This document shows positions 12,080-28,506 of a stretch of 39,014 bases of DNA, piece after piece; within the stretch, counting starts at the first letter, position 1, and the number at the start of each line of letters is the position of its first letter. The notes below the pieces were generated by a model. It worked only from the letters and a program-made list of their open reading frames with translations. It ran no database searches and was not told the DNA's origin. Where the stretch lies: positions 1 to 39,014 of the forward strand of contig DUMC01000056.1 in the NCBI GenBank assembly GCA_012840075.1, in the 5' to 3' direction. The DNA comes from Clostridiaceae bacterium (GTDB lineage Bacteria > Bacillota > Clostridia > Acetivibrionales > DUMC01). A program made the translations under genes and the position numbers.

Positions 12080-12119
12080 ACAATGTACCCAATGACAAGA
12101 TAATGAAATGGTGATAAGT

Positions 12120-12437
12120 ATGAAACAAGAATTGAATATATATGAGGAAAATATGACAAATTATGTAAAAGTTGTAATATCCGGAGAAGTAGATATCTAC
12201 ACATCTACGAAATTAAAGGAAAAACTTTATGATATAATTGACAAAAATGATAAAGATTTAAAAATAGATTGCAGCCAGCTAAAGTATATAGACAGCACAG
12301 GTCTTGGGATATTTGCAGGTGCTTTTAAAAAAGCTAAGGAATTTGATAGGAAAATATACCTGACCGGGTTAAAAAGCAATATAAAAAAATTGTTCGTCAT
12401 TACCGGTCTGGATAAGTTATTTATAATTGAGGAGTGA
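12120..12437 (+). CDS. Anti-sigma factor antagonist, SpoIIAA/RsbV type (STAS domain)
   Basis: This 105-residue single STAS-domain protein belongs to the family that, when unphosphorylated, binds the anti-sigma kinase and frees the sigma factor. The phosphorylation loop is YIDSTGLGIF with Ser59 at the position of SpoIIAA Ser58. The start at 12120 is chosen because GGTGAT (12110-12115) lies at good spacing; an in-frame ATG at 12108 has no ribosome site. It is the first gene of a partner-switch cassette and is followed after 11 nt by a degenerate RsbW-like gene and then the sigma gene. It could equally be a target of the intact RsbW-like protein at 13786-14253. Confidence 0.9.
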   Translation: MKQELNIYEENMTNYVKVVISGEVDIYTSTKLKEKLYDIIDKNDKDLKIDCSQLKYIDSTGLGIFAGAFKKAKEFDRKIYLTGLKSNIKKLFVITGLDKLFIIEE

Positions 12438-12448
12438 AGTGATTAAAA

Positions 12449-12847
12449 ATGGGAACATCTGCTGATATCATAGAGTTAATGCTTCCTTTAAAAGCCGAAT
12501 ATGTTAGTATTGCAAGACTTACTGCTTCGGGTATAGCAAGTAGAATGGGATTTGATATTGAAGTAATTGAAGATATTAAAGTTGCTATATCCGAAGTGTG
12601 CAGTAAGTATGTACAAAAAGGCAGTTCCTTAGCTGAAAAATTCAAGATTATTTTTACAGTATCGGAAGATTGTCTTACCATTACATTTAATTCGGAAGAC
12701 AAATCACTAAGATGCATTTTTAATAAAGAAGATGATGAATTAGCCATATCTATTTTAAATGCATTGATGGATGAAGTGCAGCTATGTATAGATAATAATG
12801 ATGATTATTTACTTACTATGTCAAAATATCTTGAGAGGAAAATGTAG
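12449..12847 (+). CDS. RsbW-like anti-sigma protein lacking ATP-binding motifs
   Basis: Position and overall sequence fit the RsbW/SpoIIAB family (132 residues, between the antagonist and sigma genes). The N-terminal strand-helix start is present, as is EDIKVAISEVC (41-51), which aligns with the N box. The general-base Glu49 is kept, but the Asn that binds Mg-ATP is Lys53. The G1 box (DxGxG) reads NSEDKS (81-86) and the glycine-rich G2 box is absent (DDELAISI). The C-terminal LNALMDEV helix typical of RsbW is retained. I infer it may still bind sigma but cannot phosphorylate the antagonist. The start follows GAGTGAAGTG. It ends 2 nt before the sigma gene, so translation is probably coupled. 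Confidence 0.75.
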   Translation: MGTSADIIELMLPLKAEYVSIARLTASGIASRMGFDIEVIEDIKVAISEVCSKYVQKGSSLAEKFKIIFTVSEDCLTITFNSEDKSLRCIFNKEDDELAISILNALMDEVQLCIDNNDDYLLTMSKYLERKM

Positions 12848-12849
12848 TA

Positions 12850-13617
12850 ATGCAGCAAAAGGACAAGGAAGTTAAAATGAAATTAACTTCTCCGGATAAA
12901 GAAGAAGAATTATTTCGTGCTTATAAAGCAAATCCTACTATTAAGAACAGGAATATTATTGTTAACAAATATCTTTATCTTGCTGAAATCATAGCTAAGA
13001 AGTTTCTAAACAGGGGAGTAGAATATGATGACATTTTTCAAGTCGCTTCTATCGCTTTAATAAAGGCAGTGGAACGTTTTAGTCCTGATAAAGGTGTTAA
13101 ATTTGTCAGTTTTGCGACCCCTACAATAGTTGGTGAAATTAAAAGGTTTTTCCGGGATAAAGCTTCAATTATTAGGATACCCAGAAGAATATACGAAGAT
13201 TACAGGAAAGTTCACAAGGCCAAAGAATATCTGTACAACGTACTGCAGAGATCTCCGAGGGTTGATGAGATAGCGGAATACCTAAATATTAGTGAGGAAG
13301 CTGTACTTGAAATAATTGAATCAAAGAATATATTCAACATGAAATCTTTTGATCAAGCGGCTTATACTGATGATGATATAGAATTACATGAAACTATCGG
13401 TGAAGAAGACAGTTCTTTTGAAAGAATAGAAAATCATGATTTCCTGATGAGAAGCCTTGATAAGTTTAATGATATTGAAAAGGAATTCATAAAAATGAGA
13501 TACTATGAAAATATGACACAAAAAAGCATAGCTGAAGTTTTAGGTGTGTCTCAAATGTATGTATCGAGAATGGAAAAGAAAGTTCTAAGAAAATTAAAAA
13601 TGATATTGGAGAAGTAG
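12850..13617 (+). CDS. RNA polymerase sigma factor, SigB/SigF/SigG group
   Basis: This is a group 3 sigma-70 factor. It has region 2 (NIIVNKYLYLAEIIAKKF, then EYDDIFQVASIALIKAVERF and KFVSFATPTIVGEIKRFFRD), region 3 (PRVDEIAEYLNISEEAV) and region 4 with the helix-turn-helix MTQKSIAEVLGVSQMYVSRME. The 255-residue length is normal. The gene order antagonist, anti-sigma homologue, sigma matches both spoIIA and sigB cassettes. The intact SpoIIAB expected for spoIIA is missing, so I favour a SigB-like stress or alternative regulator over SigF; this is inference. The ATG at 12850 has its nearest AGAGG about 11 nt upstream. ATG 12877, after AAGGAAG, is an alternative start giving 246 residues. Confidence 0.93.
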   Translation: MQQKDKEVKMKLTSPDKEEELFRAYKANPTIKNRNIIVNKYLYLAEIIAKKFLNRGVEYDDIFQVASIALIKAVERFSPDKGVKFVSFATPTIVGEIKRFFRDKASIIRIPRRIYEDYRKVHKAKEYLYNVLQRSPRVDEIAEYLNISEEAVLEIIESKNIFNMKSFDQAAYTDDDIELHETIGEEDSSFERIENHDFLMRSLDKFNDIEKEFIKMRYYENMTQKSIAEVLGVSQMYVSRMEKKVLRKLKMILEK

Positions 13618-13664
13618 ATAAATTAAACAAATCAGTTTATGTTTTTACATAAATAAAAATGGGT

Positions 13665-13728
13665 AAATACTATTAGTTGAATGCGAAGCATAATATATTT
13701 AGTTCGCAAGTTAACTAATAGTATTTTA
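13665..13728 (+). terminator. Intrinsic terminator after the sigma gene
   Basis: AAATACTATTAGTT at 13665-13678 pairs perfectly with AACTAATAGTATTT at 13713-13726. An inner stem TGCGAA (13682-13687) pairs with TTCGCA (13703-13708). TTTT runs through the end of the right arm. It separates the sigma cassette from the next kinase-like gene, so the two are probably not one transcript unless readthrough occurs. Confidence 0.7.
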
Positions 13729-13785
13729 ACTGTGTTTTATTCTATTGATCGTTTTTATAACTTAACTATTAACATTTGAATAAGG

Positions 13786-14253
13786 ATGGATATAGCCTTG
13801 AACTGCATTGATTTACTAACAATATTTTATAAGACGATACCGAGTAGCCTTAATATAGTAGGCACTACAGTGAAAGAAATTTTAAGACATATAGAAAAAT
13901 CCTATGGCAGTGAAATTGATGAAGAGATTCTTTTTGAGTTGAGAGTCGTGTTGAATGAACTGATAGTAAATGCAATCATTCATGGTAATAAATTTGATGT
14001 TAGAAAGAAGATAAAAATTACTTCTGGTCTGACAAAAGATAAAAGAGCTTATTTTATAATTACAGACGACGGTGACGGTTATGATTATAACTACATTTTA
14101 AAAAAATGCAATGAGCTGCCGCATATGGCATGTAATGAGCACTTATCTGAGAGCGGCAGAGGAATTTTAATAGTAAAAAGCCTGTGTGAGCAAATCATTT
14201 TTAACAAAAACGGTAGCGAAGTAATGATAATAAAAAAACTGGAAAAAGATTAA
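13786..14253 (+). CDS. Anti-sigma regulatory factor, serine kinase (RsbW/SpoIIAB-like), intact
   Basis: This GHKL-type ATPase of about 150 residues has all its boxes. The N box is ELRVVLNELIVNAIIHGNK with Glu58 and Asn62. G1 is DDGDG (94-98) and G2 is ESGRGILIVKSL near 121-132. It should bind and phosphorylate a STAS antagonist and hold a sigma factor or other partner. It sits 168 nt after the sigma gene, beyond a strong hairpin. AAGGATGG overlaps the ATG at 13786, so the TTG at 13798, 8 nt after that site, may be the real start. I keep the longer form because ATG is the commoner codon. It could serve the neighbouring sigma cassette, whose own RsbW homologue is degenerate, or an unlinked switch. 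Confidence 0.88.
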   Translation: MDIALNCIDLLTIFYKTIPSSLNIVGTTVKEILRHIEKSYGSEIDEEILFELRVVLNELIVNAIIHGNKFDVRKKIKITSGLTKDKRAYFIITDDGDGYDYNYILKKCNELPHMACNEHLSESGRGILIVKSLCEQIIFNKNGSEVMIIKKLEKD

Positions 14254-14435: not shown

Positions 14436-15128
14436 TTATCCTTCATATAATCCATAAGCATTATTTACATCTTGAACAAACATAATACCATTACCGGGTT
14501 CATCTATTTTAAGCTCTTTTCTTATTGATTCAACAATAGCTTCAACTAAAGATGACTTTGAGAGAATCATAACAACTTCTTTTTCAGGTTCAATTGCCAT
14601 GGAGAATAATGTACTGGTTTCATGTATACCTGAACCCCTGGCATTGATAATAGTGCCACCTGTTGACCCGGCTTTGGTAGCAGCATCTATAACTTCTTCA
14701 GCTTTGCCTTTATCAACAACAACGAAAATTACGTTGTACATTGTATTTTTTACACCTCTATCCTCTTTAATAATTTTATTATCAAAATCACATTTTAAGT
14801 TATGAACACCAATAAGGTTTTTCACAGAAGTACTAAAAGCTATACCGTGATGTGGTTTTTCCAATTTCAGTTCCTTATTTAATTCTTCCAGGGCAACTAA
14901 TGCTTTTTGTTTTGAAGTTGCCAATAATACAATTTCTTTCCTGATATCGGACAAATCCAACAATTTAAGAATACGGCTTTGGGCAGTACCTTTGCCTAAA
15001 AATATGGTTCCGCCGCTTATTCCAACTTTTTTTGCAATCTTAATTACTTTACTGCCTTGCCCGAAATTTACAATTACACAGATCAATTCACCTTCTACTA
15101 TATCAAGGAGTGCTTGCGGTTTTTCCAT
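14436..15128 (-). CDS. PII-like signalling protein with two tandem PII domains
   Basis: The 230-residue protein contains two copies of a PII-like (GlnB-fold) domain, about residues 14-105 and 130-222. The copies share a glycine-rich loop (GISGGTIFLGKGTAQSR at 36-52 and GSTGGTIINARGSGIHE at 154-170) and a C-terminal strand (KELKLEKPHHGIAF and KELKIDEPGNGIMF). Ordinary PII proteins are about 112 residues and form trimers, so a fused pair is unusual. The canonical T-loop uridylylation tyrosine is not seen. The start overlaps the end of the upstream DUF1538 gene by 26 nt, so the two products are made together and probably interact at the membrane. PII proteins usually sense nucleotides and 2-oxoglutarate and gate transporters; what this one senses is unknown. 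Confidence 0.85.
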   Translation of the reverse strand: MEKPQALLDIVEGELICVIVNFGQGSKVIKIAKKVGISGGTIFLGKGTAQSRILKLLDLSDIRKEIVLLATSKQKALVALEELNKELKLEKPHHGIAFSTSVKNLIGVHNLKCDFDNKIIKEDRGVKNTMYNVIFVVVDKGKAEEVIDAATKAGSTGGTIINARGSGIHETSTLFSMAIEPEKEVVMILSKSSLVEAIVESIRKELKIDEPGNGIMFVQDVNNAYGLYEG

Positions 15129-16617
15129 CTACCTCTAAACCTCCTTTTTTAGTTTTTATTTTATATATAAAACCTAAGGTTTGCAATGCTATTAAAGGTG
15201 TTAAAGCAACCATTGATATTACACCAAATCCATCTATAAGGACATCGGCTCCTTCAGTTGCTTCAGCAATTCCCTGAGCAAAAGCTAAGATAAAAGTTGC
15301 TGTCATAGGGCCGGAAGCAACTCCGCCGGAATCAAAAGCTATACCTATAAAAAGACCCGGTACAAATTGCATTAATGCAATGGCTATTATATAGCCGGGT
15401 AAAAGATAATGCCACAATTTAACACCAGGCACCATAATTTTAATTATTGTCAAAGCTACCGAAAAAGCAACTCCAATTGACAGTGAAAGAAATACCGAGC
15501 CTCTTTTTACATATCCGCTGGTTATTTCTTCTATTTGATGAGTTAGCACGTGCACTGCAGGCTCTGCTAATATTGTTACCAATCCAAGAAAAAATCCTAC
15601 AAGAATGGCATAAAATTTATTTCCCATAGATGCCGCTCCATATCCGACAATACTTCCTACCTCCATAAATCCTGCATTTACAGCACTTAAGAACAAAACT
15701 AATCCAACAAAAGCATATACAATTCCTTTTAGTATCTTGCTAAGAGCTTTTTTGGACAGTTTAAAGGAGATTACCTGAAAGATTAAGAATAAAACTATGA
15801 TAGGAGAAAGAGCGAGGAGGATCTGCAAAGATACAGAAGGAATTTCATTTAAAAAAGGTGATATAATCGAAGATGATTGTGACAGCGAAAGGTTTAAGCT
15901 ACCGGTTAGGTTTTCAGGTTTTGAAACTATGCCCATAATCATAACACCTAATATAGCTCCTGCAGAGGCAATACCAACTAAACCGAAACTATCTTCTTCG
16001 GAAGACAAACTATCTTTCTTTAACTTGGTAACACCGGTATTTAAAGCTAACAAAAACGGTACAGTCATTGCACCTGTAGTTGCACCCGATGCATCAAAAG
16101 CTATTGCCAGAAATTCTGTTGGTGTAAATAATCCGAAAAAAAGTATAATGAAATAACATATGGTAAAAAATCTTCTAAGAGTTACGTTATAAACTATCCT
16201 AATCAAACCTAAAGCTACGAGAACTGCGATACCGATGGATACAACAATAATTATACCCCACATGGATATTACTTTGGACGTGACAAATTCAACTTGTCTT
16301 GCAAGTATATGTAAGTCAGGTTCAGCTATTGAAATCAAAAAACCTAAAATTAATCCACCAGCTCCTACGATCCATAACTTATTGCTCTTAATCAAAGTGG
16401 ATCCCATATGGTTACCGATAGGTGTAATAGCTAAGTCAACGCCAAATAAAAATATCGTCAAACCAATTATAACTAAAACAGCACCTATGATGAATCTGAT
16501 TAACACAGGTGTTTCAAGCGGTACTATTGTAAAATTCAGTATAAGAACTATTATGGTAATAGGAAGAACAGAAAACAAAACCTCTTTAAATTTTTCAGTA
16601 AGCAAGCTCAAGAGCAA
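15103..16617 (-). CDS. DUF1538-family integral membrane protein, internally duplicated
   Basis: This 504-residue, very hydrophobic protein has about a dozen predicted membrane helices. It consists of two related halves. IAEPDLHILARQVEFVTS (97-114) recurs as LAEPAVHVLTHQIEEITS (350-367). IAFDASGATTGAMTVPFLLAL (172-192) recurs as IAFDSGGVASGPMTATFILAF (426-446), an offset of about 254 residues. Conserved acidic, His, Gln and Gly residues within membrane segments suggest a transporter or channel, but the substrate is not known to me. It is the first gene of a two-gene unit with the double PII-like protein. The ATG is preceded on the minus strand by GAAAGGAAGTGAG. A candidate promoter lies about 120 nt upstream. 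Confidence 0.88.
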   Translation of the reverse strand: MLLSLLTEKFKEVLFSVLPITIIVLILNFTIVPLETPVLIRFIIGAVLVIIGLTIFLFGVDLAITPIGNHMGSTLIKSNKLWIVGAGGLILGFLISIAEPDLHILARQVEFVTSKVISMWGIIIVVSIGIAVLVALGLIRIVYNVTLRRFFTICYFIILFFGLFTPTEFLAIAFDASGATTGAMTVPFLLALNTGVTKLKKDSLSSEEDSFGLVGIASAGAILGVMIMGIVSKPENLTGSLNLSLSQSSSIISPFLNEIPSVSLQILLALSPIIVLFLIFQVISFKLSKKALSKILKGIVYAFVGLVLFLSAVNAGFMEVGSIVGYGAASMGNKFYAILVGFFLGLVTILAEPAVHVLTHQIEEITSGYVKRGSVFLSLSIGVAFSVALTIIKIMVPGVKLWHYLLPGYIIAIALMQFVPGLFIGIAFDSGGVASGPMTATFILAFAQGIAEATEGADVLIDGFGVISMVALTPLIALQTLGFIYKIKTKKGGLEVDGKTASTP

Positions 16618-28345: not shown

Positions 28346-28380
28346 AAAAAATAATAAGTACAAAGCGCAATAATTTAGTG

Positions 28381-28468
28381 TGATTTCCCTACGTTGGCAT
28401 TACCCAAATCAGGTTCAAAGGGTCGAAGTTATACAACTTCCTCTCAGCCTGTTACACAAGCTCCCCTA
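28381..28468 (-). ncRNA. TPP (thi-box) riboswitch
   Basis: Read on the minus strand, the element has the conserved thi-box words in order: GGGGAGC near the 5' end, GGCTGAGAGG, then ACCCTTTGAACCTGATTTGG, GGTAATGCC and AACGTAGGGAA. These form the pyrimidine- and pyrophosphate-sensing helices. It lies between the promoter at 28507-28535 and the terminator at 28316-28345, upstream of thiM. TPP binding should favour the terminator and shut down thiM-thiE-HAD-thiD. Confidence 0.97.
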
Positions 28469-28506
28469 AAATTAAATCAATATTAAGTTTAATTTGAGTT
28501 AAACTT

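Follow-up and report, generated by a model that had tools for sequence, protein, structure and literature searches.

A tandem PII-like protein encoded in overlap with a fused double-unit DUF1538 membrane protein in a Clostridiaceae bacterium

Two duplicated products of an overlapping gene pair

The window analyzed here is a stretch of 39,014 nucleotides from the genome of a Clostridiaceae bacterium (GCA_012840075.1, contig DUMC01000056.1). It encodes, on the reverse strand, a fused double-unit DUF1538 membrane protein followed by a tandem PII-like protein (Table 1). The coordinates of both open reading frames and the length of their overlap proved to be exactly as first described. A Shine-Dalgarno sequence, ggagg, precedes the ATG of the PII gene and provides it with a good to strong ribosome-binding site. 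Such overlap or near-abutment is the rule in nearly all of the ~98 DUF1538/PII clusters that we compared. The pair is convergent with a sigma-factor gene group on the forward strand (12108-14253), which by sequence look encodes an anti-sigma-factor antagonist, an RsbW-like kinase, a SigB/SigF-type sigma factor and then a second HATPase protein; an HATPase_c_2 match covers 13786-14253 (+) in this group. The window also holds a TPP riboswitch at 28369-28477 (-), which scores 80 bits.

Table 1. Features of the DUF1538/PII gene pair in the window
Feature	Coordinates	Strand	Details
Tandem PII-like protein gene	14436..15128	-	230 aa; two stretches match PF00543 (50.2 bits)
Fused double-unit DUF1538 membrane protein gene	15103..16617	-	504 aa; TTG start; PF07556 431 bits, two stretches
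N-terminal DUF1538 unit (D1)	15859..16617	-	PF07556 222 bits; D1 clade SH-aLRT 99; carries E99, D175
C-terminal DUF1538 unit (D2)	15106..15858	-	PF07556 221 bits; D2 clade SH-aLRT 99; carries E352, D429
N-terminal PII domain (P1)	14754..15128	-	PF00543 14.9 bits; P1 clade SH-aLRT 95; VIA Z 10.5 SbtB/PotN; T-loop motif lost
C-terminal PII domain (P2)	14439..14750	-	PF00543 43.8 bits; VIA Z ~11 GlnB/GlnK; conserved T-loop base and B-loop
26-nt overlap of both genes	15103..15128	-	From ORF coordinates

The 504-aa membrane protein consists of two homologous halves, which align over 240 residues with 27% identity (E 6e-33). The repeated motifs on which the original prediction rested are present in both halves: AEP occurs at residues 98 and 351 (spacing 253), and IAFD occurs at residues 172 and 426 (spacing 254). 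The assignment to DUF1538 is likewise borne out, as the whole protein and each half taken separately score far above the PF07556 gathering score of 22.6. The AF2 model is all-helical (pLDDT 86), and its predicted helix breaks hold two pairs of conserved acidic residues, E99/D175 and E352/D429. In D1, E99 and D175 belong to the AEP and IAFD motifs. Among relatives, E352 and D429 of D2 are invariant, and the core motifs of DUF1538 are common to all units compared. Judged by the model and this conservation, the acidic pairs are the best candidates for cation or proton sites. Fold comparison (VIA) returned a top Z of only 5.1, which is under the trustworthy level, as is a group of EAAT1 rows near Z 4 for residues 350-487. 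A search of the PDB found no sequence relative of DUF1538.

The two halves of the 230-aa soluble partner are 31% identical over 96 residues (E 1e-16). The whole protein exceeds the PF00543 cut-off of 25 bits and the C-terminal half passes by itself, but the N-terminal half alone falls below it (E 0.03), so the profile check of the PII halves holds for only one of the two. The AF2 single-chain model has a pLDDT of 86 and a pTM of 0.80. Foldseek and VIA match it to PII proteins, with VIA Z scores of 10-11 per domain, and the predicted domains have the ferredoxin-like PII fold. P1 (mean pLDDT 86) is matched to SbtB and PotN, while P2 is closest by structure to GlnB/GlnK; in this ranking, rows within 1 Z of each other count as tied. 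Since the N-terminal half aligns to the C-terminal half and is predicted to adopt the PII fold, we regard it as a PII domain despite its low Pfam score. The proposed composition of the partner from two PII-like halves is thereby upheld.

A conserved and a fast-evolving PII domain

In the window protein, P2 retains a T-loop base (ARGSGIHE...IEPEKE) and a B-loop (PGNGIMF), which correspond to RGxGxHE...EPEKE and PGxGI, respectively, across this PII family. The EPEKE-type motif is kept in 69/72 P2 domains and in 12/13 lone PII proteins, in contrast to 9/72 P1 domains and none of the nine systems with a single DUF1538 and a single PII. Mean identity is 45% among the conserved P2 domains and 30% among the fast-evolving P1 domains. 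On the PII tree, P1 forms a clade, the PII proteins of single systems form another (SH-aLRT 98), and the lone PII of systems with two DUF1538 units is always nearest P2. The tree is unrooted and is compatible with both a gain and a loss of P1. Because P2 is conserved, P1 evolves fast and the lone PII proteins group with P2, the sequences point to P2 as the core regulator and to P1 as an added or dispensable twin, a fast-evolving paralogue.

The family departs from classical PII proteins in its signatures, which we take to be the PROSITE C-terminal pattern with a G[DY]G[KR] B-loop and the T-loop uridylylation motif Y-[KR]-G-[AS]-[AE]-Y. By these patterns, neither the B-loop Lys/Arg signature (0/166) nor the uridylylation motif (0/166) occurs in any of the PII domains examined. 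ATP and 2-oxoglutarate sensing as in GlnB should thus not be assumed. In the PDB, the sequence that best matches the PII domains (9p1x) is a 105-aa single-domain PII protein with an aligned B-loop of GDGR, i.e., of the classical type; a literature search found no paper that names this entry. The window's genome encodes no other PF00543 protein above the cut-off, classical GlnB/GlnK included. Its weak second match is a 109-aa protein behind a thymidylate kinase gene (L138 2849-3178), which by place and look is presumably the c-di-AMP receptor PstA. PstA has a PII-like fold and belongs to a different subfamily from the window PII.

Several known PII systems resemble the pair in part. GlnK, like the window protein, is a PII-fold protein encoded beside a transporter, and P2 is nearest in fold to GlnB/GlnK; however, GlnK has a single domain, targets an ammonium channel (AmtB) and carries a uridylylation site in the T-loop and a Lys in the B-loop, both of which the window family lacks. 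SbtB, also PII-like, is the dedicated regulator of SbtA, a Na+-dependent transporter, and matches the P1 model at Z 10.5. It differs in being a single-domain protein, and SbtA is a bicarbonate transporter of a different membrane family. PotN, a PII-like protein of Lentilactobacillus, matches in fold to the same degree (Z 10.5), but it has one domain and is linked to an ABC-type system.

Co-retention and copy number of the two families

We evaluated the co-occurrence of the two families across a set of 299 genomes from the phylum; DUF1538 is present in 101 of them. The PII partner was sought with its own profile (A3) at E<=1e-20, a threshold fixed after the values had been seen. At this threshold, 100/101 genomes with DUF1538 have a match, compared with 0/198 genomes without it. 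The sole DUF1538 genome that lacks the partner (G056) carries only a decayed DUF1538 pseudogene with several stops, at 2161174-2161630 of contig 1 (L145, L147), where DUF1538 has decayed along with the loss of its partner. The best PII match outside the DUF1538 genomes (8e-20, in G049) is a remnant that ends after the T-loop (L149 1225-1671). In one genome (G218), both genes are intact but unlinked, on different contigs. Among 72,556 plasmid records, the identical nine carry DUF1538 and the PII partner; the Methylocystis and Chelativorans plasmids (Alphaproteobacteria) have the order DUF1538-DUF1538-PII. Because of the genome counts, the decayed exceptions and the shared plasmids, we conclude that the two families are kept and lost together. 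A PII-fold gene is thus stably paired with a transporter gene, as in PII-gated systems. Absence of the pair from other genomes had been set as grounds for rejecting the original prediction, and its conservation instead supports the proposed pairing of a dedicated PII-type protein with a duplicated transporter. As a separate observation, an RNase P RNA gene lies near the DUF1538-PII cluster in five relatives (L059, L066, L082, L087 and L094), which probably reflects shared synteny.

The complete clusters fall into a small number of types. The most frequent joins a fused DUF1538 to a tandem PII (52 clusters), followed by two DUF1538 genes with a tandem PII (14), two DUF1538 genes with one PII (13), one DUF1538 with one PII (9), two DUF1538 genes with two single PII genes (5) and a fused DUF1538 with two single PII genes (1). 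Two clusters have a fused DUF1538 with no adjacent PII, which in one case (G218) sits elsewhere, and two combine a tandem PII with a DUF1538 gene that is broken or split in an unusual way. A fused DUF1538 with an adjacent PII always has two PII domains and a single DUF1538 always has one; neither a fused DUF1538 with one PII nor a single DUF1538 with two was found among the complete clusters. The idea of matched duplications therefore fits the fused and single forms but fails for the 13 clusters in which two DUF1538 genes accompany a single PII; it describes the fused form truly without being a general law.

The DUF1538 tree resolves into three clades, D1, D2 and the units of single systems (SH-aLRT 99, 99 and 98, respectively). 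Because these clades are separate, D1 and D2 go back to one old duplication within our sample. On the D2 tree, the fusion of DUF1538 requires one change, the fusion of PII requires nine and the presence of two PII domains requires four. As the DUF1538 fusion changes only once, the matched copy number amounts to a single independent pair, without independent replication.

A possible PII-regulated cation/proton antiporter

DUF1538 is not an uncharacterized membrane family, as had been supposed: UmpA and UmpB of Halomonas zhaodongensis, encoded by two DUF1538 genes, together carry out Na+(Li+,K+)/H+ antiport (Meng et al. 2017, PMC5484666). Neither protein is active singly, and the two genes are sufficient for antiport in Escherichia coli, with no mention of a PII gene (PMC5484666). 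On the equivalog models for UmpA and UmpB (NF041627 and NF041628), the halves of the window protein reach 71-82 bits each, very far short of the cut-offs of 490 and 500, which makes the protein a relative of UmpAB and not an equivalog; given these scores, the function is transferred over a considerable distance. The window protein shares with UmpAB the Pfam family and the presence of two homologous DUF1538 units per transporter. Each two-unit system in our sample combines one D1 with one D2, on a tree built from the units of our sample alone. The differences are that UmpA and UmpB are separate genes while the window protein is one chain, and that the window gene has a PII partner, which is unmentioned for the Halomonas system (PMC5484666). 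By sequence, the window protein looks like an UmpA/UmpB-type pair fused into one chain, and from this distant relative we infer Na+(Li+,K+)/H+ antiport.

We favor, with a probability of roughly 0.65, the reading that the module comprises a fused UmpA/UmpB-type cation/H+ antiporter and a dedicated tandem PII regulator that docks on it as GlnK and SbtB do on their targets. The DUF1538 protein would be a monovalent cation/H+ antiporter whose heterodimer is made as a single chain, and the PII protein would be its cytoplasmic regulator. The PII cleft may bind a small effector, for which an adenine nucleotide is the likeliest candidate and c-di-AMP a possible one, whereupon the conserved T-loop of P2 would dock on the cytoplasmic side of the antiporter and open or shut it, on the model of GlnK on AmtB and SbtB on SbtA. 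P1, as a diverged paralogue, would probably serve in assembly or as a second contact. In favor of this reading stand the joint retention of the two families in genomes and on plasmids, the overlap or close spacing of their genes, the known activity of UmpAB, the position of the conserved acidic pairs, the predicted PII fold of both domains and the T-loop motif kept in P2 and lone PII proteins. Against it count the distance from the UmpA and UmpB models, the missing classical PII signatures and the lack of the EPEKE motif in all nine systems with a single DUF1538 and a single PII.

The possible involvement of c-di-AMP is suggested by riboswitches. In two relatives (L074 and L126), the DUF1538 genes are immediately preceded by a c-di-AMP riboswitch on the same strand, compared with ~0.07 such cases expected among 80 genomes with ~89 riboswitches (P ~0.002, a rough estimate that assumes ~1500 operons per genome). 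These two cases hint at a tie of the DUF1538 genes to ion or osmotic balance and to c-di-AMP. The window's genome has five c-di-AMP riboswitches; upstream of the window pair, none was found at the gathering threshold and none was credible at E 5. In another genome (G037), a DUF1538-PII-PII cluster is immediately followed by a c-di-AMP riboswitch on the same strand (contig 1, 607990-608162).

The c-di-AMP riboswitches of the ydaO class turn off genes for K+ uptake, upstream of which they are usually placed, so the reading of DUF1538 as an exporter fits poorly with the two upstream cases. Together with the large distance from the UmpA and UmpB models, they speak for another solute or direction of transport, such as inward movement of K+ or an osmolyte with PII as the gate, in which case UmpAB antiport would not transfer to this clade. 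We consider this unlikely, though the strongest of the rival readings, as the riboswitch cases number only two and the DUF1538 core motifs are shared by all units.

Behind it ranks a second unlikely reading, in which the PII-like protein senses no ligand and serves the transporter as an obligatory structural part, a scaffold or cap. The near-perfect co-retention of the two genes, the decayed DUF1538 without PII and the truncated PII remnant without DUF1538, and the missing classical ATP-contact signature would all agree with such a role. Conversely, UmpA and UmpB gave antiport in E. coli without any PII (PMC5484666), the T-loop base and GxG B-loop that form the PII ligand cleft are strongly conserved in P2, and both genes persist unlinked in G218. 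A classical nitrogen-regulatory PII beside the transporter by chance is very improbable, since neither PF00543 membership nor the public annotation of relatives as "P-II family nitrogen regulator" outweighs the facts that a strong match to the PII partner never occurs without DUF1538 and that 166/166 domains lack the uridylylation and B-loop signatures.

Returning to the regulated antiporter, we tentatively extend it to the family as a whole, at odds slightly short of even: a separate branch of PII proteins, present in at least two phyla, may be devoted to DUF1538 cation/H+ antiporters and tie ion and pH balance to a signal carried by an adenylate or c-di-AMP. Where there are two PII domains, one would sense and dock, and its twin would be structural or provide a second contact. 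The established roles of PII regulators are in nitrogen and carbon uptake; such a branch, if real, would add ion and pH homeostasis to these roles and suggest that many genes annotated as "P-II family nitrogen regulator" are unrelated to nitrogen. DUF1538 gains a testable partner, and the natural series of single-single, two-one, two-two and fused-fused systems allows the coevolution of regulator and transporter stoichiometry to be studied.

Both PII-gated transporters and UmpAB are already known. Our search of the literature available without subscription found no description of the PII-DUF1538 pairing and no relevant paper on tandem PII domains; in the only paper on DUF1538 that also contains "PII", these letters belong to a sequence motif. 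Public annotation already places DUF1538 and PII genes side by side, without comment.
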